Source of the DNA: Chitinophagaceae bacterium | Lineage (GTDB): Bacteria; Bacteroidota; Bacteroidia; Chitinophagales; Chitinophagaceae | Direction: 5' to 3' | Assembly: GCA_023957755.1 (NCBI GenBank) | Contig: JAMLGT010000019.1 | Coordinates: 1-64,000, forward strand | DNA: 64,000 nucleotides | Shown: in pieces, positions 47,890 through 59,194 of the stretch | Layout of the letters: the number at the start of each line of letters is the position of its first letter | Position numbering within the stretch: the stretch's first letter is position 1 | Made by a program: the position numbers and the translations under genes | Notes under the pieces: generated by a model | What the model saw: only the letters and a program-made list of their open reading frames with translations | Database searches by the model: none | Told to the model about the DNA's origin: nothing

Positions 47890-49191
47890 TTACTTAAAAC
47901 CGGACATCAATAATTCCTTGAATGCTGACATCGAAGTCGATATCTTCCTGCTATAGCTTTCTTTGAGCGCAAGATTTTCTATTTTGCCAGGCGCCTGAAT
48001 TTTTTGAGATACCACGGGTTGCACAGTCTCACTGAATTTTGCAGGGTGTGCAGTTTCCAGAAAAATACCTGCTTCACCCTTATTGTTTTCTAAATGAGCT
48101 TTCAGTGCCAGATATCCGACTGCTCCGTGAGGATCCATGATATAACCTGTCTTTTCAGCTATGGCACGAATGGCTTCCAGTGTTTCTGCTGATGTAAAGC
48201 GGTAGGCAGATATATGCCTCCTGATTGCTGCATGATTATTTTCGAACAACGCCAGTACCCGCTGAAAGTTACTTGGCTTACCCACATCCATTGCGTTAGA
48301 GACTGTCGGGATGGTGTCGCGTGCAGACGTGTCTCCACTTTCAAGATACCTTACAAAAAGATCGTTCTCGTTACATGCAGCAAGGAATTTCCTGACAGGT
48401 AGCCCTCGCTTGCCGGCCAATAAGCCTGCACAAATATTACCGAAGTTGCCGCTAGGCACACTTATAACCGGAGCCTGCCCGAGAGGCCATTGCTTTACTG
48501 CAATGAAATAGTAAAATTGTTGCGAGAGCCATCTGGCAATGTTAATCGAGTTGGCAGAATTGAAGTGGTATCGCTGAGATAAGTCCCTGTCGGCAAATGC
48601 CTGCTTTACCATAGCCTGGCAATCATCGAAGGTGCCACTCACTTCACAGGCAGTAATATTTTTCCCGTAGGTAGTGAGTTGAAGCCTTTGAGTCTCACTT
48701 ACCTTGCCGGATGGGAATAGAATGATGACATCAACGCCTTCTACTTCGTAGAAAGCATCAGCTACGGCTCCGCCTGTGTCTCCTGAAGTGGCCACCAGAA
48801 TGGTTATCTTCTTTTCAGATTGTGCTACAAAGTATTCGAGACATCTGCTGAGGAATCGCGCTCCTACATCTTTGAAGGCAAGGGTAGGGCCATGAAAAAG
48901 CTCCAATGCGTACACATTGCTTTCAACTTCTCTTAATGGAAATTCGAAGGGGATCGTTTCTTCTACAATCCTTCTAAGAGCCGGTTTGTCGATATCAGTG
49001 CCAACAAATGGCAGGATAGTCTGGAATGCGATTTCCTCATTACTGAATGCTCTCCAGTTTTGACGGAATTCAGGAGTAAGAAGAGGTATTGATTCGGGGA
49101 AAAACAACCCTTTTTCCGGTGCCTGTCCCATCAGTACGGCTTCTTTAAAACTGACTTTGTATTGCCGGTTATTTAGACTATAGAAATTCAT
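47890..49191 (-). CDS. thrC: Threonine synthase
   Basis: A 433-residue PLP enzyme that converts phosphohomoserine to threonine. The PLP lysine is K107 in GPTLAFKDVGARF. The phosphate-binding and substrate segments are present (VATSGDTGGAVADAFY at about 135-150, FNSANSINIARWLSQQFYYF at about 210-229, SVPSGNFGNICAG). It is the last gene of thrA-thrB-thrC; its ATG overlaps the thrB stop by 4 bases (ATGA), which suggests coupled translation. It ends beside the MITE-like copy B, which may terminate the operon. Confidence 0.96.
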   Translation of the reverse strand: MNFYSLNNRQYKVSFKEAVLMGQAPEKGLFFPESIPLLTPEFRQNWRAFSNEEIAFQTILPFVGTDIDKPALRRIVEETIPFEFPLREVESNVYALELFHGPTLAFKDVGARFLSRCLEYFVAQSEKKITILVATSGDTGGAVADAFYEVEGVDVIILFPSGKVSETQRLQLTTYGKNITACEVSGTFDDCQAMVKQAFADRDLSQRYHFNSANSINIARWLSQQFYYFIAVKQWPLGQAPVISVPSGNFGNICAGLLAGKRGLPVRKFLAACNENDLFVRYLESGDTSARDTIPTVSNAMDVGKPSNFQRVLALFENNHAAIRRHISAYRFTSAETLEAIRAIAEKTGYIMDPHGAVGYLALKAHLENNKGEAGIFLETAHPAKFSETVQPVVSQKIQAPGKIENLALKESYSRKISTSMSAFKELLMSGFK

Positions 49192-50099
49192 ATCAGTGGA
49201 GTTTGTTTCAGGGTAGTGACATATGTTTTATAATCTACCCCTAGGCTTTGATAGACAGTTGTCATTTCCCGGACAACTCTTTCGGCGGTTTCTTTTTCGC
49301 GGCTAAACATAAACATTGAAGGGCCTGAGCCGGCAATGCCACCACCGAGCGCACCGGCGGCCAGGCACCTGGCTTTGACCTCCTCAAATCCGGGTATTAG
49401 TATGCTTCGTGAGGGTTCAAATATCACGTCGTGAAGCGATTTCCCAATGAGGGTGTAGTTGCCTGTGCAAAATCCGGCTACAAGTGAGGCTACATTTGAC
49501 CATTGCGTGATTGCTGATTTTAGCGGCACTTCTTTTCGGATAATCTTTCTGGAGTCAGAAGTCTTTACTTCTATTTGCGGGTGTATAATACTCACATGTA
49601 GCTCCGGCACAGGAATACTCACTGCGTCAGGAGGTTGTAACGACTGAATAATGCTCACACCACCTAACAGGCATGGAGCTACGTTGTCGAGGTGTGCGAC
49701 GCCACCCGCGACTTTCTCCCCCTGCATAGCGAAGTACAGAAGCTGGCTTTTTGTAAAAGGATTGCCCAATACCATATTTGCAGCTGCCACTGCCCCCATG
49801 GCACTGGCAGCACTGGATCCCAGGCCACTTCCGGGTTTGATATTCTTATGAATTCCCACATCGAAACCGATGGTACTGCTTACTTCATTCAGAAGTGCCT
49901 GCAGGGAAACACCGGCCACATTGAGCGCAGGGTCTTCAGGCAATTCAAAATTATCTGTATGGTGAATTCTAATCCCGGGTTTTTCCGAAAGCTTTAGTGT
50001 GATTTCATCGTAAGGCGCTGACACTGCAAACCCGAGCACATCAAATCCGCAGACGATGTTGGCGATGGTGGCCGGTACTCTTAATTTTACTTCATTCAT
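49188..50099 (-). CDS. thrB: Homoserine kinase
   Basis: A 303-residue GHMP kinase that phosphorylates homoserine. The N-terminal RVPATIANIVCGFDVLGFA and the glycine-rich ATP loop PGSGLGSSAASAMGAVAA (about 91-108) are diagnostic, as is the C-terminal AGALGGGIAGSGPSMFMF. It is the middle gene of the thr operon, 24 bp after thrA and overlapping thrC by 4 bases. Confidence 0.96.
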   Translation of the reverse strand: MNEVKLRVPATIANIVCGFDVLGFAVSAPYDEITLKLSEKPGIRIHHTDNFELPEDPALNVAGVSLQALLNEVSSTIGFDVGIHKNIKPGSGLGSSAASAMGAVAAANMVLGNPFTKSQLLYFAMQGEKVAGGVAHLDNVAPCLLGGVSIIQSLQPPDAVSIPVPELHVSIIHPQIEVKTSDSRKIIRKEVPLKSAITQWSNVASLVAGFCTGNYTLIGKSLHDVIFEPSRSILIPGFEEVKARCLAAGALGGGIAGSGPSMFMFSREKETAERVVREMTTVYQSLGVDYKTYVTTLKQTPLI

Positions 50100-50123
50100 T
50101 TCTCTTGCTTTAGAGATGAAGAC

Positions 50124-52568
50124 CTAACGGACAGCTCTCAGTATATCCGCGAATACTCCCGAGGCAGTCACCTCAGCACCGGCTCCTGCTCCCTTTATGA
50201 TTAACGGTTGTTCGGTGTACCGTTTTGTGTAGTACAACACAATATTATCTTTTCCATATAGGTGATAGAAGTCCTGGTCTTCGCTGATTTCCTTCAGCCC
50301 GGTCCGGGCTTTTCCGTTTTCAAAGGTCGCTACATATTTCAGTTTCCTGCCATTTTTCCGGGCTGATGAAAGTAACTTTCTGAAGTGGTCTTCATGCTTT
50401 TCTACCTGTTCGTAAAAGTTTTCAATACTCCCCTGCATGGTGGCTTCCGGCAGGAAAGAATCGTTCTCAATATCACTGAGTTCCAAAGGATATCCTGATT
50501 CTCTGGCGAGAATTAATATTTTTCGCATTACATCAGTACCACTCAGGTCAAGCCTTGGATCTGGTTCGGTATAACCTTCAGCAGCAGCCTTCCTTACTAC
50601 CTCGGCAAAAGAAGTGCTGCCATCATAATTGTTAAATACAAAATTGAGCGTACCGCTGAGCACAGCCTCTATCCTGGTAACCTCGTCGCCACTCTTCAGG
50701 AGATCGTTCAGCGTATTGATAACAGGCAGTCCTGCTCCTACATTTGTTTCAAAAAGGAAGGATACGTTATGCCTTGAGGCCAGCGATTTCAGTTGCTGAT
50801 AGTATGCATATTCTGATGATCCTGCGATTTTGTTACAGGCAACGACCGAAATACTCTTTTGGAGCAGTAAAGGGTATTGCCTTGCTACATCTGCATTTGC
50901 AGTGACATCTACGAATATCGAATTACGCCTGTTTTCATTTCTGATTTTATCGATGAATGCGGGCAGGTCCATCTTGTCGGCGTTTTGCAATTCCTGTTCC
51001 CAGTCTTTCAGGCTTACACCACTGTGGCTGAATAGCATTTTTCTGCTATTCGCTATTCCCGCAATTTTGATGTTAAGGAATAATTTTTCTTTCAGATATT
51101 TTGATTGTTGCAATAACTGGCCAATCAGCTTTCGGCCTACGTTGCCGGTGCCGCAGATATAAAGGTTGATTTCCTTGTAGGTATCTTCAAAGAATTCTTC
51201 GTGTAATACATTCAGTGCCTTTTTTACATCGTTTGTAGAGATAACCGCTGAGATATTCCTCTCCGAGGAGCCTTGTGCTATTGCCCTTACATTAATCCCG
51301 TTTCTACCCAGTGCACCAAACATCTTACCGCTGATACCCGATCTGCTTTTCATGCTGTCGCCTATAATTGCTACTACGGACTGGTCTTTTTCTATCCTCA
51401 CCGGTTTTAGTTTTCCGGTTTCTATCTCCATGGCAAAGCAGTTATCCAGAGCTTTCTTAGCCTGTTTGGCGAGTGTATCTTCAATAACCACGCAGATGCT
51501 ATATTCTGAGGAGCTTTGCGTAATAAGAATCACATTTATTTTTTCGGTGGCCAGTGTCTCAAAAAGCCTTTTGGAAAAACCGGGGATACCAATCATACCG
51601 CTGCCTTCTACAGTAAGCACGGCCATTCCTTTCATACTACTCAGTCCTCTTACCGCATTGCCATTGTGCTCGATGTAGTCATGGATTTTTGTTCCGGCAT
51701 CCTCGGGATGAAATGTGTTCTTTACAAGGATGGGGATTTTTTCAGGGAAAGCAGGTGCAATGGTTTTAGGATAAATTACTTTAGCGCCGAAGTGTGATAG
51801 TTCCAAAGCTTCTTCATACGATAACTCGTGAATGATGCTGGCATTCTTGACCACTCCGGGATCAGCAGTCATCATTCCTGAAACATCTGTCCAGATCTCT
51901 ATTACTTTAGCGTGCAGTGCAGCGCCTAAAGCAGAAGCTGTATAGTCTGATCCCCCTCTTCCAAGTGTGGTGCGGTTTCCTTCAGCGTCACTTCCCGTGA
52001 AACCCGGAAAAACGAATACCTTACAGCCTGAGGCGCTTATTAGTGGCTCCACCAGTTCTCTGGTTTTTCTGATATCTATAGTGGCTTTACTATGTTCGCT
52101 GTTTGTGCGGATGAGCAGGCCGGAGTTCATCCATTCATTAGGAATACCTCTTTGCTTCAATATCTCAGAGAAGATTAGTGTAGAAAGCACTTCTCCATAG
52201 CTTAGTATCAGGTCGTAAGTATGTGGGGTAAGTTCTCTTACCAGGAACACACCTTTGCAGATATCTTCTACTTCGTTGCATAATTCTTTTATACGTGTGA
52301 GTATGCTGCTCTGGTGTTGTACGTCTATAGTCTCCTTGATTACCTCCAGATGCCTTTCGCATATATTATTGAGAATATCAGAATATCGGTTATCCTGAGC
52401 AAGGGCGGCCTGTGCCGCTTCGATAAGGCTGTCGGTCACTTTGCTCATTGCTGAAAGCACGATTACTACCTTTTCATTGTGTGTACAGGTATCTGATATG
52501 ATGTTGTAAACTCTTTCAATATTATTTGAATTGGCTACGGAGCTTCCTCCGAATTTGAGTACGCGCAT
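50124..52568 (-). CDS. thrA: Bifunctional aspartokinase / homoserine dehydrogenase
   Basis: An 814-residue fusion catalysing the first and third steps from aspartate to threonine. The aspartokinase domain begins with VLKFGGSSVAN and has the TLGRGGSDYTA and EIWTDVSGMMTADP segments. ACT regulatory domains follow (about 310-460, with MIGIPGFSKRLFETLA and SRSGISGKMFGALGRNGINV). The homoserine dehydrogenase starts with the NAD(P)-binding loop GTGNVG at 473-478. ACT domains suggest feedback inhibition by threonine. Upstream, a 29-codon leader ORF rich in Thr and Ile codons points to attenuation as a second control. Confidence 0.97.
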   Translation of the reverse strand: MRVLKFGGSSVANSNNIERVYNIISDTCTHNEKVVIVLSAMSKVTDSLIEAAQAALAQDNRYSDILNNICERHLEVIKETIDVQHQSSILTRIKELCNEVEDICKGVFLVRELTPHTYDLILSYGEVLSTLIFSEILKQRGIPNEWMNSGLLIRTNSEHSKATIDIRKTRELVEPLISASGCKVFVFPGFTGSDAEGNRTTLGRGGSDYTASALGAALHAKVIEIWTDVSGMMTADPGVVKNASIIHELSYEEALELSHFGAKVIYPKTIAPAFPEKIPILVKNTFHPEDAGTKIHDYIEHNGNAVRGLSSMKGMAVLTVEGSGMIGIPGFSKRLFETLATEKINVILITQSSSEYSICVVIEDTLAKQAKKALDNCFAMEIETGKLKPVRIEKDQSVVAIIGDSMKSRSGISGKMFGALGRNGINVRAIAQGSSERNISAVISTNDVKKALNVLHEEFFEDTYKEINLYICGTGNVGRKLIGQLLQQSKYLKEKLFLNIKIAGIANSRKMLFSHSGVSLKDWEQELQNADKMDLPAFIDKIRNENRRNSIFVDVTANADVARQYPLLLQKSISVVACNKIAGSSEYAYYQQLKSLASRHNVSFLFETNVGAGLPVINTLNDLLKSGDEVTRIEAVLSGTLNFVFNNYDGSTSFAEVVRKAAAEGYTEPDPRLDLSGTDVMRKILILARESGYPLELSDIENDSFLPEATMQGSIENFYEQVEKHEDHFRKLLSSARKNGRKLKYVATFENGKARTGLKEISEDQDFYHLYGKDNIVLYYTKRYTEQPLIIKGAGAGAEVTASGVFADILRAVR

Positions 52569-52592
52569 TATTTTAAGTTGTAAGAATGTTGG

Positions 52593-52693
52593 AAAAAAAC
52601 AGAAATAGACTGACGGATGGTTATAATAATTACATACCCTTGCGGGTAATACCTGTAGTGGTAATCGTAATATTATGAAGGATTGACACCTTC
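52593..52693 (-). promoter_or_regulatory. Candidate thr attenuator structures
   Basis: On the transcript, GAAGG (52693-52689) pairs with CCTTC (52681-52677). Further on, TACCC pairs with GGGTA around a GCAA tetraloop (52648-52635), a stem that overlaps the end of the Thr/Ile codon run and approaches the leader stop. A run of seven U follows at 52599-52593, preceded by only a 3-bp CAG/CTG stem. ACAGAA near the first stem could instead pair with UUCUGU just before the U run. The terminator is weak by Escherichia standards, so the exact mechanism is uncertain. Confidence 0.45.
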
Positions 52694-52719
52694 TGTGAAT
52701 ATGATCCGCTTGATTTCAT
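52630..52719 (-). CDS. thrL: thr operon leader peptide
   Basis: A 29-codon ORF, ATG at 52719-52717 and TAA at 52632-52630, ending 61 bp before thrA. Residues 16-25 read NITITTTGIT, five Thr and three Ile within ten codons, very like the ITITTTG run of the Escherichia coli thr leader peptide. Ribosome stalling at these codons when threonyl- or isoleucyl-tRNA is scarce would control transcription into thrA. A TAGATTTG promoter box lies 7 bases before the ATG, so the peptide would be read from a nearly leaderless mRNA. Support is the codon run plus its position; the downstream attenuator stem is weak. Confidence 0.7.
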   Translation of the reverse strand: MKSSGSYSQKVSILHNITITTTGITRKGM

Positions 52720-52726
52720 ATAGGCG

Positions 52727-52734
52727 CAAATCTA
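52727..52734 (-). promoter_or_regulatory. Promoter -7 box TAGATTTG for the thr operon
   Basis: An exact TAnnTTTG match on the minus strand. A TTG lies about 23 bases upstream, near the usual -33 distance. The predicted start, about 52721, falls just before the leader-peptide ATG. Confidence 0.55.
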
Positions 52735-52783
52735 TATGAAAAGATTTTGATTGAGAACAAAAAGAGAAAAAAATATTTTTTCT

Positions 52784-52859
52784 ATTGTCCGGAAAAGGTG
52801 GCTAAAGCCCGATAAGCATCGGTTTTAGTTTTTTTACTCAGGGTCTGATTGTAGCACAA
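52784..52859 (+). repeat. Degenerate partial copy of the 134-bp element
   Basis: It begins with the same end, ATTGTCCG, and keeps the GTGG-CTAAAGCCC stretch and a GGTTTTA tract in the order seen in copies A and B. The central stem is replaced by CCGAT-AAGC-ATCGG. The right-hand inverted repeat is not recognisable; a CACAAT at 52854-52859 may be a remnant. It lies just upstream of the thr promoter. The remaining 52860-52988 shows no gene or signal I can name. Confidence 0.5.
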
Positions 52860-52988
52860 TGAGTATCTTTCTCAATTAGTACTTTAGCCTGGTTGCGAAT
52901 AACTCAAACGGGAAGCACCGACTTTTTAAAAATAGAAGCGTAACATCCTCTTGTTTTTTAGTTAATGCTGCTAAAGATTTTATAGAGC

Positions 52989-54005
52989 TTACCTTACTCT
53001 GAAAATATAAGTAAATGGTGTTTGTAACAGAATCTGAAAGTCCATTACAAATCCGTGTTCTCTTGCATAAGTATTGTCCAGCCACAGACTCTCTTCCTCA
53101 TTAAGTCGTTGCCGGGCCTTACTGATTGTATGGCGGAGCCCGATGATGCCCGCAGGAGCATTAAATCGTTCCACCGTTTTATTGTCTGTCAGGGTGGAAG
53201 CTTTTCTCAGTGCAATCGGGCGTACACCCACTATGGACATATCTCCTTTCAGCACATTAAAGAGTTGTGGAAGGTGGCAAAAGCCTGCTTTCTTCAGTAT
53301 CCTTCCGAAGAAAAATTTATGTGATTGCGTGGTGTGGGCATCCGGCTGTGGCATGCAGAACTGATATAACCTGAATATTTTGTAATACTGTCCGGTACAT
53401 TCAGTAGAAGTGATGAGAGTACTTTTTATTGCAAATTTCAGGTACAGTGTGATGATGGCAATAACAGGCAGGAACATGGTGAGTAGGGAGGCAGATACAA
53501 TGATGTCGAAAATTCTCTTCCCTGTTGATATTCCTGATGATGGCTGATATAAGATGTTACTTTTCTGGTGTGGGAGATGTGAAGCGCCTGGTATTTCGCA
53601 TGGCCTTTCGATATCTACCAGTTCGTCGGCAAAGCTGAGGCTGTCCAGTTTTCTGATTTCTGCCGCCGGCCTGCGATTAATATTATATACAATGGGTATC
53701 ATGCAACTCCACCTGGCAGAATGAAGGTAAAGTACGAAATCGCAAAATGCTTTCTCATTCAATGGAAGGTCAATGAATATGAAATCCGGTGTCAGGTTTA
53801 GTGTATGAAGCTTGTCCAATGTTTTTTGAGCACCGGGGTAACCGGTCTCTGCATGGGTGTTGCGCACACCATAGTGTTGCCTCGCGTATTGTTCGTTTTC
53901 TCCTATATACAGAAATAGTCCTGTGCGATGAAGCGCATCTTTTACAATATGAGGTTTCGTCTCCCGAATGGGTGTTGTTTCTTTGTGTAGAATTCCAGTA
54001 ATCAT
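52989..54005 (-). CDS. Sugar-transferase homologue with receiver-like N-terminus, catalytic pair missing
   Basis: A 338-residue protein. The C-terminal part is of the bacterial sugar transferase family (WcaJ/PglC-like): membrane segment KRIFDIIVSASLLTMFLPVIA (split; about 163-190), then LPQLFNVLKGDMSIVGVRP (245-263). In active family members LPQL is preceded by Asp-Glu, the catalytic pair; here those positions are C243-H244. The N-terminal part (about 30-140, with TPDFIFIDLPL, D79) resembles a response-regulator receiver but lacks a clear KP motif. It follows the pseudo-receiver gene by 59 bp. It may be inactive and regulatory, or use a different chemistry. No glycosyltransferase cluster is adjacent. 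Confidence 0.78.
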   Translation of the reverse strand: MITGILHKETTPIRETKPHIVKDALHRTGLFLYIGENEQYARQHYGVRNTHAETGYPGAQKTLDKLHTLNLTPDFIFIDLPLNEKAFCDFVLYLHSARWSCMIPIVYNINRRPAAEIRKLDSLSFADELVDIERPCEIPGASHLPHQKSNILYQPSSGISTGKRIFDIIVSASLLTMFLPVIAIITLYLKFAIKSTLITSTECTGQYYKIFRLYQFCMPQPDAHTTQSHKFFFGRILKKAGFCHLPQLFNVLKGDMSIVGVRPIALRKASTLTDNKTVERFNAPAGIIGLRHTISKARQRLNEEESLWLDNTYAREHGFVMDFQILLQTPFTYIFRVR

Positions 54006-54064
54006 TTGTCGCTCAGTTAGGGTTAAAAATTAATTATTGGAGTTCCATTGAATATTGGGGATTA

Positions 54065-54484
54065 TCAATTCAGATTTAAAAACTTTCTTTTCTTAAATAA
54101 TACTTCAGAGGTGCTAACGGGGTAGCATATACTTTTTACTGAGTCAGCCAGACGCAATGGGTCAAATGGTTTGCGGAAGAAAGCTGCTACTTCATAGACA
54201 TCACGTATCTGGCTTAGTTGTTGATCTTCGTAATCGGACAGCATCACTACGGGGATCTCTCTGAAAAACGCACTTGAATCCAGATGATGTAGCAGCGCTG
54301 CCGGGAGCATGTTGCGCTGTTCCACGCTTAACACGATACAATCAAAATCTGCGCAGGGCAACTGGTCCATTGCATCAAAAATATTGTTAACCACACTTAC
54401 TCTGAAAGAGTCGCTCAATACCGTCTTAATCACCATTCCCAGGGAATTATTTGACTCTATACAAAGCACCTTCTTTTTCATCAC
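54065..54484 (-). CDS. Pseudo-receiver (response-regulator-like) protein
   Basis: A 139-residue stand-alone receiver domain. The fold signs are present: KVLCIESNNSLGMVI at the start, IPVVMLSDYED (S83 at the Thr/Ser switch position) and FFRKPFDP (K105, conserved lysine). The phospho-acceptor Asp is missing: the strand reads CIVLSVEQ, with S53 where Asp is expected, and the acidic pocket has only E10. Phosphorylation in the usual way is therefore unlikely. It precedes the sugar-transferase homologue by 59 bp on the same strand, so the two probably form an operon. A perfect palindrome lies 25 bp before its start. Confidence 0.8.
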   Translation of the reverse strand: MMKKKVLCIESNNSLGMVIKTVLSDSFRVSVVNNIFDAMDQLPCADFDCIVLSVEQRNMLPAALLHHLDSSAFFREIPVVMLSDYEDQQLSQIRDVYEVAAFFRKPFDPLRLADSVKSICYPVSTSEVLFKKRKFLNLN

Positions 54485-54508
54485 TCGATTTATTAAAACA
54501 ACTTATAA

Positions 54509-54528
54509 AATCAATTAACTAATTGATT
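54509..54528. promoter_or_regulatory. Perfect 20-bp palindrome, candidate operator
   Basis: AATCAATTA and TAATTGATT form a perfect 9-bp inverted repeat around AC, 25-44 bp upstream of the pseudo-receiver ATG. The size and position suit a site for a dimeric repressor. The sequence is AT-rich, which raises the chance of coincidence. Confidence 0.45.
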
Positions 54529-54847
54529 ATCACAGGAAATAGTTGCTTCAGAAGGATAGTGGAAGTCTGCTTGTTTTAGGTTAGTCCGTGCTCAACCAGC
54601 AGATGGTGCGTCGGGGGCGGTTATGCGCCCATCCACACACAGGTTAGTAATTATAACTCTCACAAATTTAATTAGTTTGATAGGAAATGCAAGAGTGCGG
54701 CCAACCTTTTTATCAGGTAATTTTTTCCATGTGGAATCTTTAATGCAAGGAGAATTGAGGTAGGGATTGTTTACACAGGGATTGGCAGGGAAATTGAAAA
54801 ATTTCACAGAAACCTCAAATATTCTTAAATTTAATAAAAATTATACC
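54529..54847. other. Intergenic region, no gene recognised
   Basis: About 319 bases between the divergent pseudo-receiver and the downstream hypothetical gene. A GC-rich patch near 54598-54650 (GGGGGCGGTTATGCGCCC) can form a short stem. An in-frame TTG at 54767 extends the next ORF but is not the likely start. No promoter box is convincing. Confidence 0.35.
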
Positions 54848-55252
54848 ATGATCAAATTCAGCGACTTAAAGGCGGGAGACTACGTCCTGGCGAATTCTGA
54901 TGGAAAGGTATGGATGGGGGAGGTGACGAGTTTCAACCGCGATGAAAAGGAAATTGGGGTGGACAATGGCGTTCAGGAATTCTTCTTTAAAAGTGAAGAG
55001 TTGAATCCTGTTCCACTGGATGACAACACACTCCTAAAGATGAGTTTTAAGAAGCAGGCCAACGAAGATGGCACCGTGAAGTATATGAAAGGTGCTTTTC
55101 GGCTTCTGACTCCGGGTAAAGACAATTTTTCAAGGTTTGAGATGTGGTATAAGGATGAAAAGCGCATCATCCTCGATCCAATTTATCTGCACCAGTTGCA
55201 GAACCACTACCTTGAGATGACTAAGGTGCATCTTACCGATCAGCCCATTTAG
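54848..55252 (+). CDS. Hypothetical protein
   Basis: A 134-residue soluble protein starting at the ATG at 54848 (MIKFSDLKAGDYVLANSDGK). The in-frame TTG at 54767 would add 27 residues of no evident character. The N-terminal part looks like a small beta-barrel (KAGDYVLAN, GKVWMGEVTSF, EIGVDNG), and the C-terminal half is mixed alpha/beta with aromatic residues (FSRFEMWYKDEKRIILD). There is no signal peptide, membrane helix or known motif. I do not recognise a family. It is convergent with the lipoprotein gene, 31 bp apart. Confidence 0.7.
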   Translation: MIKFSDLKAGDYVLANSDGKVWMGEVTSFNRDEKEIGVDNGVQEFFFKSEELNPVPLDDNTLLKMSFKKQANEDGTVKYMKGAFRLLTPGKDNFSRFEMWYKDEKRIILDPIYLHQLQNHYLEMTKVHLTDQPI

Positions 55253-55283
55253 AAGGTTATTTACAAATGCGATCTGTGGGAGG

Positions 55284-55985
55284 TTATTTCAGTACAGCCT
55301 CCTTCAGGGTGGTTTTTATGTCGATGTTTTTCTTCACCGTCATAAAATCAATTTGCATGACGGTTGTGTTTTCTATAAGGCCTACCTCGGGTGCATAGTA
55401 GGAATCAATATTATTAATGAAATTCTGTACAGGAATTGTAACTGTAGAGATGGTGGTATGTACATGAATCACGTCGCTATAGTTCTTGCCACCTACCGTA
55501 CGGTTGCCGATGTCGGATATTTCATAAGACACTTTCAAGGGAACCTGACCGAATGGATAATCTGGCACCTCAATATTAAAATCCTGGCTCCATTTGGTAC
55601 CCGGTAACGTTTTGTCCTTTAAATAAAGCAATTCGATATGCGATCCCAGGCCGCCCGGTAGTGTGTCATACCTGAAATAGTCTGAACCCAGTTTCGATAA
55701 GTACTGACTCCCCCCAAAGGAATAGTCGTAGATATGATAGGTTCTGCCGTTGATAGAAGTATCCTTCGGAGTAGAGGTAATGGTGAATTCGGAGATCTCC
55801 GGTGTGCCGGATGAGTTATCAACCTGGGTATAAGTCCAACTGCTTCCCGAGTTAATATTCATGTAATTGGTCTCTTTTGGCGGTTCCTGCTCAGATTTGT
55901 TCTTTTTACAGGCGGCAAAAAACAGCGAAAAAGTCAGCAACAGGAGTATGTTTCTCAGGGTAATAAAGGAAAAAATTTGTTTCAT
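55284..55985 (-). CDS. Hypothetical lipoprotein
   Basis: A 233-residue lipoprotein. The start is set at the ATG at 55985, because it opens a lipoprotein signal (MKQIFSFITLRNILLLLTFSLFFAACKK) with the acylated cysteine at residue 26; an ATG at 56093 would add 36 residues before it. The mature part is beta-rich (SSWTYTQVDNSSG, EFTITSTPKDTS, YAPEVGLIENTTV), resembling small outer-membrane or periplasmic beta proteins of Bacteroidota. KK after the cysteine and no SusD features are seen. Function unknown. It separates infA from anything upstream. Confidence 0.78.
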   Translation of the reverse strand: MKQIFSFITLRNILLLLTFSLFFAACKKNKSEQEPPKETNYMNINSGSSWTYTQVDNSSGTPEISEFTITSTPKDTSINGRTYHIYDYSFGGSQYLSKLGSDYFRYDTLPGGLGSHIELLYLKDKTLPGTKWSQDFNIEVPDYPFGQVPLKVSYEISDIGNRTVGGKNYSDVIHVHTTISTVTIPVQNFINNIDSYYAPEVGLIENTTVMQIDFMTVKKNIDIKTTLKEAVLK

Positions 55986-56139
55986 TACAGGGTGATATTT
56001 GGTGTTAATAACGGATTTTTGGACCCTTTTAAGGTGCTTAGCGGGCCAATCTGTCAAAAAAATGGTAATTATTCGCCATATTTTTATCCACAAAGGCTTT
56101 GCAAAGCTATAATTTTTTCAATTATTAAGTTAATAAGCA

Positions 56140-56147
56140 TATCTTTG
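56140..56147 (+). promoter_or_regulatory. Promoter -7 box TATCTTTG for the alpha operon
   Basis: An exact TAnnTTTG match 17 bases before the infA ATG. Because the upstream gene is divergent, this should be the main promoter for infA to rplQ. Confidence 0.55.
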
Positions 56148-56164
56148 CGCTCCCAAAATCGAAA

Positions 56165-56386
56165 ATGGCGAAGCAAGCACTTATAAAACAAGACGGTACA
56201 ATTCTGGAAGCCTTATCCAATGCCATGTTTAAGGTGCAGTTAGAGAATGGCCATGAGATTTTGGCAACCATTAGTGGTAAGATGAGGATGCACTATATCA
56301 GAATCTTACCGGGTGATAAGGTAGGAGTAGAGATGAGCCCTTATGACTTGTCAAGAGGACGCATCATTTTCAGATATAAAAACTAA
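56165..56386 (+). CDS. infA: Translation initiation factor IF-1
   Basis: A 73-residue S1/OB-fold protein ([20 protein letters not shown], then [44 protein letters not shown] spread over residues 29-72). IF-1 binds the ribosomal A site during initiation. It opens the alpha operon here; secY and map, which precede infA in many Bacteroidota, are absent, and a divergent lipoprotein gene takes their place. Confidence 0.97.
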
Positions 56387-56419
56387 AAACGACGCCGTAA
56401 GGCACAAAAAAGACTTATC

Positions 56420-56536
56420 ATGAGAGTAAGGGCATCTATAAAAAAGAGAAGTGCAGACTGCAAGATTGTACGTCGTAAGGGCAGGCTGTATGTGATTAAC
56501 AAAAAGAACCCAAGGTACAAGCAAAGACAAGGTTAA
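56420..56536 (+). CDS. rpmJ: 50S ribosomal protein L36, zinc-independent form
   Basis: A 38-residue protein (ATG 56420, TAA 56534-56536) with [10 protein letters not shown] at the start and KHKQRQG-like ending YKQRQG. Of the four zinc ligands of the classical form only C14 remains; the others are Ser, Asn and Tyr, so this is the C-minus type that needs no zinc. It lies 33 bp after infA and 25 bp before rpsM. Confidence 0.95.
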
Positions 56537-56561
56537 ACTCTAATAAAAACGAAAACTCAAT

Positions 56562-56942
56562 ATGGCGCGTATAGCCGGTATAGATTTACCAAAGAATAAA
56601 AGAGGAGAAATTGGCCTTACCTATATATATGGTATTGGTCGTAGCACAGCTCAGTATATCCTCGATAAGGCAAACATCAGTCACGATAAGAAAGTGAGTG
56701 AGTGGAATGATGATGAGCAGGCTGCTATCAGAAATATTATTGCAGCAGAAATTAAGACTGAAGGTGCATTAAGAAGTGAGGTGCAGACACACATCAAGAG
56801 GCTGCTCGATATTGCATGCTACCGCGGGTTAAGGCATCGTAAAGGATTGCCGGTTCGTGGCCAGCGCACTCGTACCAACAGCCGTACAAGAAAAGGAAAA
56901 CGTAAGACAGTAGCGGGTAAGAAAAAAGCACCGAAGAAGTAA
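56562..56942 (+). CDS. rpsM: 30S ribosomal protein S13
   Basis: A 126-residue S13 with [20 protein letters not shown] at the start, [12 protein letters not shown] helix-turn, and the basic tail [19 protein letters not shown]. It binds 16S rRNA in the 30S head and contacts the 50S subunit. The gene's stop codon lies inside a terminator-like hairpin (56932-56949), and 124 bp separate it from rpsK. Confidence 0.97.
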
Positions 56943-56955
56943 TTCTTCGCTTTTT
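56932..56955 (+). terminator. Terminator-like hairpin across the rpsM stop codon
   Basis: CGAAGAA (56932-56938) pairs with TTCTTCG (56943-56949) around GTAA, followed by C and six T. It has the form of an intrinsic terminator inside the operon, though the stem is AT-rich. It may reduce or control transcription into rpsK-rpsD-rpoA-rplQ. Confidence 0.5.
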
Positions 56956-57066
56956 TGTTTCCGGGCTTAATTAATAATTCTGTGTATGCCGGATCTCTCA
57001 TTTTAAGCCGGAGGGAGGCAAAAACAGGCCGCAATAGCGGAAAAAATTTAATGATTACCTACAATT

Positions 57067-57459
57067 ATGGCAAAAGCAACAAAGGCCACTGCAAAGAAGA
57101 GAGTAGTAAAAGTGGACAATTATGGTGATGCGCATATCACCGCAAGTTTCAACAACATTATCATCAGTCTTACCAACAAGCAGGGTCAGGTAATTTCCTG
57201 GTCATCTGCCGGTAAAATGGGATTTAAGGGTTCCAAGAAAAATACGCCCTATGCCGCTCAGATGGCAGCAGCAGATGCAGCAAAGACTGCAATGGATGCA
57301 GGTTTAAAGCGGGTGGATGTATTTGTAAAAGGCCCCGGATCAGGTAGAGAAGGTGCTATAAGGTCTCTTTCCCAATCAGGACTTGAAGTAGTGCAGATTA
57401 AGGACATTACTCCTCTGCCTCACAATGGTTGCCGTCCTCCTAAAAAGAGAAGAGTATAA
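57067..57459 (+). CDS. rpsK: 30S ribosomal protein S11
   Basis: A 130-residue S11. After a basic start, [40 protein letters not shown] and the C-terminal [17 protein letters not shown] are diagnostic. It sits on the 30S platform near the mRNA exit. The 124-bp spacer upstream has no clear TAnnTTTG box but holds two GCCGGA repeats. Confidence 0.97.
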
Positions 57460-57545
57460 TTTTTATTTCATCACATAAACAGAGGGCATCTCATTGATTT
57501 TAGATTTTTAATGATGGGTTGCCGACAATAAAAAATCAAAAAAAT

Positions 57546-58151
57546 ATGGCTCGTTACACAGGACCAAAAACAAAAATTTCCAGAATTTTCGGAGAACCGA
57601 TTACAGGGAATGGTAAATGGCTTACCAAGAACAGTAATCCTCCGGGAATGCATGGTGCAGCAAGGAAAAGAAAAAGCCTTGGCGAATATGCACTTCAGTT
57701 GAGGGAAAAGCAGAAGGCAAAATACACTTATGGCCTTTTGGAAAAGCAATTCAGAAAAACATTTAATGAAGCTGCCCGTCGTAAAGGCGTTACCGGTGAA
57801 ATGCTTATTAAGCTTCTGGAAGCACGTCTGGACAATACCATTTTCCGTATGGGTATTGCGCGTAGCAGACAGGCTGCCCGTCAGCTTGTATCTCACAAGC
57901 ATATCACCGTGAATGGTGAAGTGGTAAATATCCCTTCTTATTCATTAAAGCCGGGAGATGTGATTGGGTTGAAAGACAGAAGTGCGCACAATGAACATAT
58001 CACTTCAAACCTTCAGCCAAAGAATCCTAAGTTCAACTGGATTGATTGGAATGAAAGCACTATGAAAGGAACTTTTCTGGCATACCCTGAAAGGGAGAGT
58101 GTTCCTGAAAATATTAAGGAATCACTGATAGTGGAATTGTATAGTAAATAA
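57546..58151 (+). CDS. rpsD: 30S ribosomal protein S4
   Basis: A 201-residue S4. Translation starts at the ATG at 57546 ([13 protein letters not shown]); an ATG at 57519 would add 9 residues. The S4 RNA-binding domain is clear ([38 protein letters not shown]). The N-terminal zinc-knuckle cysteines of some S4 proteins are missing, the C-minus form. S4 is a primary assembly protein and in many bacteria represses the alpha operon. The 86-bp spacer upstream can fold (CATT/AATG with flanking GGGCA/TTGCC). Confidence 0.97.
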
Positions 58152-58198
58152 ACTGTACAGAAAATTTAATCAATTCAATTCAAAACAAAATCGATAAA

Positions 58199-59194
58199 AT
58201 GGCCATTTTAAATTTTGTAAAACCTGATAAAATTGTTCTTCAGAAAAGCACAGATTTTGAAGCACAGTTTGAATTCAAACCATTAGAGCCCGGGTATGGT
58301 GTTACCATCGGTAATGCACTGCGCAGGGTTTTGTTGAACTCGCTGGAGGGATATGCTATTGTGGGGGTGAATATTGCGGGTGCTGATCACGAATTTGCGA
58401 CTATAAAGGGAGTAACCGAAGACGTTACTGAAATCATCCTAAACCTGAAGCAGGTACGTTTTAAAAGAAAAACAGTACACGAGCCGGGAACCGAAAAGCT
58501 CACCCTGAACCTGAAAGGAAAAGCAGAATTCACTGCCGGAATGATTGGTGAGGTATCTCCGAGTTTCGAAGTGATGAATCCTGATCTGCTGATCTGCACG
58601 ATGGATCCTACCGCAAGACTCGATATAGAGTTGACCATCAACAAAGGAAGGGGATATGTGCCGGCTGAAGAAGCTAAAGAAAAGAGTAACCATTTCGGTT
58701 ATATTCCAGTGGACGCAATCTATACGCCGATTAAGAATGTAAAGTATAGCATTGAAAATACCAGGGTGGAACAGCGGACTGACTTTGAAAAGTTGGTTAT
58801 GGAAGTAGTTACTGATGGTACTATTCACCCGGAAGAAGCTGTGAAGCAGGCTTCAAGAATCCTGATCCAACATCTTATGATCATCACGGATGAGAATATC
58901 ACCTTTGATAACAAAGAAGAGGAGAAGGAAGACCTGGTAGATGAACAAACGCTGCAATTGAGAAAGGTATTGAAGACTCCTCTGGAAGACTTAGACCTCT
59001 CCGTAAGGGCATTCAACTGTCTGAAAGCTGCTAAGATCAACTCTCTGAGTGAACTGGTACAATATGAGCAGGAAGACCTGATGAAATTCAGAAATTTTGG
59101 TCAGAAGTCACTGAGCGAAATAGAACAGGTACTCCAGGACAGAGGCTTGAATTTCGGAATGGATTTGACCAAGCTGAAATTAGATGACGAATAA
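58199..59194 (+). CDS. rpoA: RNA polymerase alpha subunit
   Basis: A 331-residue alpha subunit. The N-terminal assembly domain has FEFKPLEPGYGVTIGNALRRVLLNS (split across residues 24-48), and the C-terminal domain has LSVRAFNCLKAAKINSL and FRNFGQKSLSEIEQVL, the helix-hairpin-helix that touches upstream DNA and activators. Length is standard. It lies 47 bp after rpsD and 28 bp before rplQ. Confidence 0.98.
   Translation: MAILNFVKPDKIVLQKSTDFEAQFEFKPLEPGYGVTIGNALRRVLLNSLEGYAIVGVNIAGADHEFATIKGVTEDVTEIILNLKQVRFKRKTVHEPGTEKLTLNLKGKAEFTAGMIGEVSPSFEVMNPDLLICTMDPTARLDIELTINKGRGYVPAEEAKEKSNHFGYIPVDAIYTPIKNVKYSIENTRVEQRTDFEKLVMEVVTDGTIHPEEAVKQASRILIQHLMIITDENITFDNKEEEKEDLVDEQTLQLRKVLKTPLEDLDLSVRAFNCLKAAKINSLSELVQYEQEDLMKFRNFGQKSLSEIEQVLQDRGLNFGMDLTKLKLDDE

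Follow-up and report, generated by a model that had tools for sequence, protein, structure and literature searches.

A conserved threonine/isoleucine leader peptide ahead of thrABC, mostly without an intrinsic terminator, in parts of the Bacteroidota

The window (the whole stretch of 64,000 nucleotides analysed here, from a Chitinophagaceae bacterium) carries on its minus strand a promoter box, a short leader ORF, thrA, thrB and thrC in this order, which raises the question of whether the short ORF senses the products of the operon and by what RNA architecture it could pass the signal on to thrA. An earlier note on this DNA had described a 29-codon ORF with the run NITITTTGIT ahead of thrA, and reading the sequence bears this out: the ORF starts with ATG, ends with TAA and encodes MKSSGSYSQKVSILHNITITTTGITRKGM, with five Thr and three Ile among the ten codons of the run (Table 1). 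The thrA start at 52568 lies 61 nt downstream of the leader stop, and the 814 aa product matches aspartate kinase/homoserine dehydrogenase I with 1020 bits (cut-off 726). In our judgement it is fairly probable that the thrABC leader peptide senses Thr/Ile through the position of the ribosome, within an architecture that dispenses with the terminator in parts of the Bacteroidota.

Table 1. Features of the thr locus in the window
Feature	Position	Strand	Basis
-7 promoter box TAGATTTG	52727..52734	-	read directly
thr leader peptide ORF, 29 codons + TAA	52630..52719	-	ORF list and relatives
CATAT copy 1, within leader ORF	52699..52703	-	read directly
H0 hairpin GAAGG-UGUCAAU-CCUUC, directly upstream of Thr run	52677..52693	-	folding compared with shuffles
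Thr/Ile codon run NITITTTGIT, codons 16-25	52645..52674	-	read directly
H1 hairpin UACCC-GCAA-GGGUA	52635..52648	-	read directly; covariation among relatives
CAG/CTG 3-bp stem + U7 run, probably not functional	52593..52612	-	stem absent in L004
thrA, bifunctional aspartate kinase/homoserine dehydrogenase	50124..52568	-	profile match
thrB, homoserine kinase	49188..50099	-	
thrC, threonine synthase	47890..49191	-	

The Thr/Ile run of the window is not a chance feature, because eight Thr/Ile per 12 codons were reached in only 0.56% of cases when the 260 nt ahead of thrA were shuffled 5000 times in two-base blocks, and because relatives have such a run as well. The search for ThrA covered 20 genomes of the genus (own genome included) and a named genome collection, from which the best 80 of 389 matches were kept; the sample therefore leans toward close relatives, and it includes duplicates of one genome or species (L004/L033, L011/L056, L013/L040, L001/L016). 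Within this sample a comparable leader was found in 80 of 96 thrA upstream regions, the window counted (77 with a score of at least 8, plus L005, L014 and L095 recognized by eye). The 16 regions without a leader include three with less than 130 nt of upstream DNA (L066, L071, L074) and one in which a hairpin is kept but not the Thr/Ile run (L024). The relatives to which the window is compared most often below are L016, which is near-identical to it, and L004, whose ThrA is 82% identical. Leader length ranges from 25 to 34 codons (53 sequences, with the start codon picked by a script), and the median distance from the first Thr/Ile of the run to the stop, roughly assigned, is 11 codons. Thr and Ile make up 43% and 15% of the last 15 codons, compared with 9% and 13% of the preceding 13 (77 leaders); the run is conserved while the remainder of the peptide drifts. 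Among Ile codons ATA accounts for 22% in thrA vs 3% in the leaders. A short predicted leader ORF with a run of codons for the product amino acids before the biosynthetic genes, as in a classical attenuator, is present here, and the leader probably senses amino-acid shortage as it does in E. coli. In other families, Met codons occur in or beside the run (L252, L245, L248, L257, L258, L259, L262, L296, L185, and by eye L186, in a frame that differs from the script's choice). They would fit sensing, homoserine being the shared precursor of Thr, Ile and Met in the aspartate pathway, and these leaders look as if methionine were sensed too.

Upstream of the leader, the box TAGATTTG occupies 52734-52727, and a TTG at 52760-52758, 23 nt further upstream, is presumably a candidate -33 TTG element. 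That the leader ORF begins just after such a box had been noted before and is confirmed, with a gap of 7 nt to the ATG. Of 63 relatives, 37 have a TAnnTTnG box between 5 and 40 nt ahead of the leader start, compared with 62 of 1240 random sites. The description of the mRNA as "almost leaderless" holds for the window species and for L004, where the gap is likewise 7 nt, but less well for the other relatives, given a median gap of 12 nt among the 37 with a box; the script chose GTG as the leader start codon in 17 of these 37. TAnnTTTG is given as the sigma-A -7 box of Flavobacterium in the available part of one report (PMC9723704).

The check suggested for this locus, an alignment of upstream regions from Chitinophagaceae, came out in favour of the leader: the Thr/Ile codons are kept, and a hairpin at the stop codon (H1) carries compensatory changes. 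Its typical form in relatives is ACAACCCG-UUAA-GGGUUGU, in which the last Thr codons make up the 5' arm. The stop codon sits in the loop in many relatives and 2 nt past H1 in the window. In an alignment of 46 sequences, 21 cells are changed on both sides vs 6.2 in shuffles (0 of 500 shuffles reached this value) and 90.6% of cells pair vs 31-46% after sliding, and the number of further pair types is not above shuffles (5 vs 5.1). Among 89 sequences, one pair of H1 (69 C-G, 15 U-A) exceeds all 30 nulls simulated on a tree; since a T/C column pair, four columns apart and forming no base pair, also exceeds all of them, this test has alignment artefacts. A further alignment of 76 matches, mostly new and fitted to our covariance model R1, has 20 cells changed on both sides vs 4.7 in shuffles, and in it neither the pairs changed on both sides (3 vs 2.2; 160 of 500 shuffles) nor the number of pair types stands above shuffles. 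Two of the five covariation measures thus give no clear support, and taken together the alignments demonstrate a predicted stop-codon hairpin that is conserved with compensatory changes.

H0 sits in the ORF before the run, and its stems vary among relatives (e.g. GUAGC/GCUAC or UUGCAAC/GUUGCAA). Its folding energy has a mean z of -1.50 in 63 sequences, 27 of them below -1.5 (window z -1.2), compared with -0.24 for the stretch upstream (10 of 62 below -1.5) and +0.56 for the stretch downstream (0 of 12); H0 was spotted by eye before testing, so that its z is not a blind test. Past H1 follows a CATAT motif, 6-9 nt beyond the hairpin end in 80 of 101 cases, and another 14 cases at distance 0 look like misplaced hairpin calls. 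CATAT-like motifs come in two copies: the second, after the stop, is present in 54 of 63 leaders, and an early one lies in the leader ORF of 39 of 60 relatives vs 8 of 120 control windows, counted with the pattern ATAT[CTA][AG], which the window's own CATATTC does not match. Early copies fall in one reading frame in 34 of 39 cases; a reason at the level of the peptide is possible, and we have dropped the view of this copy as a frame-free RNA element. Downstream of CATAT lies H2, a weak GGC-loop-GCU hairpin. A further pair on the inner side of this stem is possible in 51 of 85 cases vs 36.3 in shuffles (some of the hairpins having been placed wrongly), but in terms of energy the 84 sequences of the main set fold no more stably here than shuffles do (mean z +0.13; -0.37 in 20 sequences of other families). 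H2 is likely real but not proven, and there is little conservation from H2 to thrA.

The window's copy is divergent within its family. It keeps the Thr/Ile run, H0, H1 and the first CATAT, and shows no clear second CATAT and no clear H2. Under R1 it scores 18.6 bits (E 3.15), below an unrelated place in its own genome (19.6 bits), and with a cut-off of E 0.01 the own genome drops out of the matches. The leader RNA of the window folds no better than shuffled (z -0.39). In its predicted fold a helix GCGGAU/AUCCGU (52709-52704 with 52618-52613) could enclose the whole leader; L004 has a counterpart (ACGGAU/AUCCGU), and helices of this type have no support in the wider family.

R1 finds one site each in 112 of 195 genomes of the family and matches 40 of 395 genomes of the phylum: ten from the same family, 17 and two from two other families of the same class, and 11 from one family in another class. 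A ThrA-like start lies within 160 nt in 56 of 58 fetched R1 sites, the exceptions being L138 and L145. An Rfam search of positions 49000-59000 of the window (E up to 5) had no match over the leader and four matches elsewhere, all below gathering, and the loci of 14 relatives had no match to Rfam 15 at gathering. The element is a candidate RNA family; across these 15 sources, nothing in Rfam 15 matched it.

What the leaders mostly do not have is an intrinsic terminator. In a scan for a hairpin followed by a U run, 8 of 109 leaders of the present type reached the threshold used for them, -9 kcal/mol; the hairpin is H1 itself in L090, L128, L148 and L159, it is H2 in L141 and it includes H1 in L170, so that only L054 and L091 have a terminator-like hairpin of their own. 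With these two exceptions, the intrinsic terminator that a classical attenuator has between leader and thrA is absent from the 109 leaders, and the scan detected no terminator-like hairpin in L001 or L004. The controls gave strong hairpins: E. coli thr has one of -20.0 kcal/mol with a U run, and the thr leaders L178 and L185 of other Bacteroidota reach -17.2 and -18.5; the values are -12.9 to -18.8 for his leaders (all nine examined, out of 11 loci; -15.4 in the own genome) and -12.3 to -18.9 for Bacteroid-trp (10 of 10 sites). In the phylum sample, scanned at -12 kcal/mol, 27 of 92 thrA upstream regions have a Thr-rich leader (score at least 8); the other 65 lie below that score, and among them L180, L185, L186, L239 and L258 have a leader by eye. 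Seven of the 27 have a terminator of -12 kcal/mol or better and 20 do not (L237 is doubtful); L185, with a leader score of 7.5, also has one. CATAT occurs in 12 of the 20 leaders without a terminator (11 by pattern, L183 by eye) vs none of the seven with one (Fisher p 0.008, for related sequences and counts entered by hand). In the family set, L091 combines a terminator-like hairpin with the lack of CATAT, while L054, which has both CATAT and a -10.3 kcal/mol hairpin before a U run, speaks against a strict either-or.

The supposition that the leader is a Bacteroidota variant of attenuation is supported by the conserved leader together with the missing standard terminator. Sensing by stalling of the ribosome is very likely, the layout of the parts speaking well for such a sensor. 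We propose that scarcity of charged tRNA-Thr (or -Ile) would make the ribosome stall in the run; because the run lies between H0 and H1, a ribosome held up early in it would, given its size, mask H0 while H1 could still form. With charged tRNA in good supply the ribosome would reach the stop codon in or beside H1 and open it, and the state of H1 and CATAT would set whether expression continues into thrA. For the output step our guess is that control of elongation is most likely, by pausing of RNA polymerase at H1/CATAT and/or by Rho-dependent termination where no stalled ribosome shields the leader RNA, which is rich in C and poor in G; Rho-dependent leader control of the tna-like or toiL-like kind is the comparison for this. 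The C-G skew of the leader RNA (0.23 vs -0.08 in thrA windows) would suit Rho, although it is partly a result of the Thr codons and confounded by them. Three pairings that might have formed a mutually exclusive antiterminator helix failed. The leader start with the linker after H1 matched no better than mismatched pairs (z 0.2, 63 sequences; a weak shuffle signal, mean z -0.61 in 53 sequences, and no covariation), for the 3' arm of H1 and the CATAT linker the mismatched combinations did better than the matched ones (p 0.99, 104 sequences, with H1 wrongly placed in some), and the Thr run paired with the thrA start no better than synonymous controls did (mean z +0.34, n 60). A covariation scan over all columns, in which variable regions align poorly, yielded no such helix either.

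Three other explanations have to be weighed against this. The locus could be a classical attenuator of the E. coli thr kind whose intrinsic terminator, a short stem and a U run, is weak or atypical. The earlier note had pointed to a 3-bp stem (CAG/CTG) with U7 and to an unusual or incomplete terminator; stem and U7 (52599-52593) are indeed present, U runs after a weak stem recur in another family (e.g. L156, L161), and thr leaders with terminators exist in the phylum (L178, L229, L230, L231, L249, L259, L296, L185). However, L016 keeps the stem and continues with TAATTTTTT, and L004 is without the stem; since the stem is missing in one relative and the U run broken in the other, the element has no support as the end point of the mechanism and is probably not functional in the window. 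With just two of 109 leaders having a terminator-like hairpin of their own and strong hairpins in the controls, we consider the classical form improbable. Translational control, in which the position of the ribosome on the leader sets the accessibility of the thrA start, with or without later Rho termination, would suit leaders without a terminator, and it has a precedent in the control proposed for E. coli toiL-topAI, as described in part of that report (PMC12121999). It is unlikely, albeit less so than the weak terminator, given that the stretch from H2 to thrA is little conserved and that the complementarity of the Thr run to the thrA start does not exceed synonymous controls; control of elongation is favoured over it.

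The ORF might also sense nothing, and be a constitutive small protein or an aid to re-initiation. Short leader ORFs near a gene may raise its translation, with a distance peak of 11-14 nt in Bacteroidetes according to the available text of one study (PMC4833913), but the leader stop lies 61 to 217 nt before thrA across the 80 leaders, far past that peak. Moreover, the Thr/Ile run is kept while the remaining peptide drifts, and we hold either version to be very improbable. Sensing by ribosome position without a terminator remains the preferred reading. We suggest, tentatively and as a thing that could well be otherwise, that the Bacteroidota have two exchangeable outputs for one thr leader-peptide sensor, either a textbook terminator or H1 with CATAT. 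In at least two classes H1 followed by CATAT at a near-fixed distance would take the place of the terminator, and this arrangement might be read by RNA polymerase, the ribosome or some other factor. If true, this would be a novel route from ribosome stalling to gene control. Within one phylum, one sensor precedes one and the same gene both in a form with a terminator and in a form lacking it, and the latter has conserved RNA parts of its own, which makes possible a simple experiment on how stalling leads to gene control without an intrinsic terminator.

Leader-peptide control has been proposed in this phylum before. For Flavobacterium psychrophilum, leader-peptide attenuation has been proposed for amino-acid operons from transcript maps (PMC9723704), which makes its elements similar to ours; unlike ours, the new 5' elements include pheA and hisG, and the words "thrA" and "threonine" are absent from the main text of that report, as far as it was available. 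For Bacteroides thetaiotaomicron, part of another article (PMC7366714) mentions long 5' UTRs that contain short, leader-like ORFs, and among the matches listed, mainly from the open-access literature, there was no report of a thr leader in Bacteroidota. Bacteroid-trp RNA (RF01692), catalogued in Rfam (PMC2864571, in the part available), resembles the present element as a Bacteroidota leader with a run of product codons (WWW, in 10 of 10 sites), but it has a canonical terminator in all ten (two of them below the family cut-off). In L201, a genome of the same order, ilvD is preceded by MNNKQLSVILSIIISVVNIY and, by eye, a terminator-like hairpin; such a leader was not seen in the other nine ilvD loci examined. 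The own genome has a his leader as well (L197, MYLITLHHHHHHSCIQAS, on contig C12 near 200700), with similar leaders in members of the genus. These his leaders share organisms and logic with the thr leader and differ from it by their canonical terminator, present in all nine examined of the 11 loci. E. coli thrL, which has an Rfam family, Thr_leader, likewise carries a run of Thr/Ile codons in a short leader ORF immediately ahead of thrABC; there the run is followed by a terminator of -20.0 kcal/mol, whereas the present leaders conserve H1 and CATAT instead.
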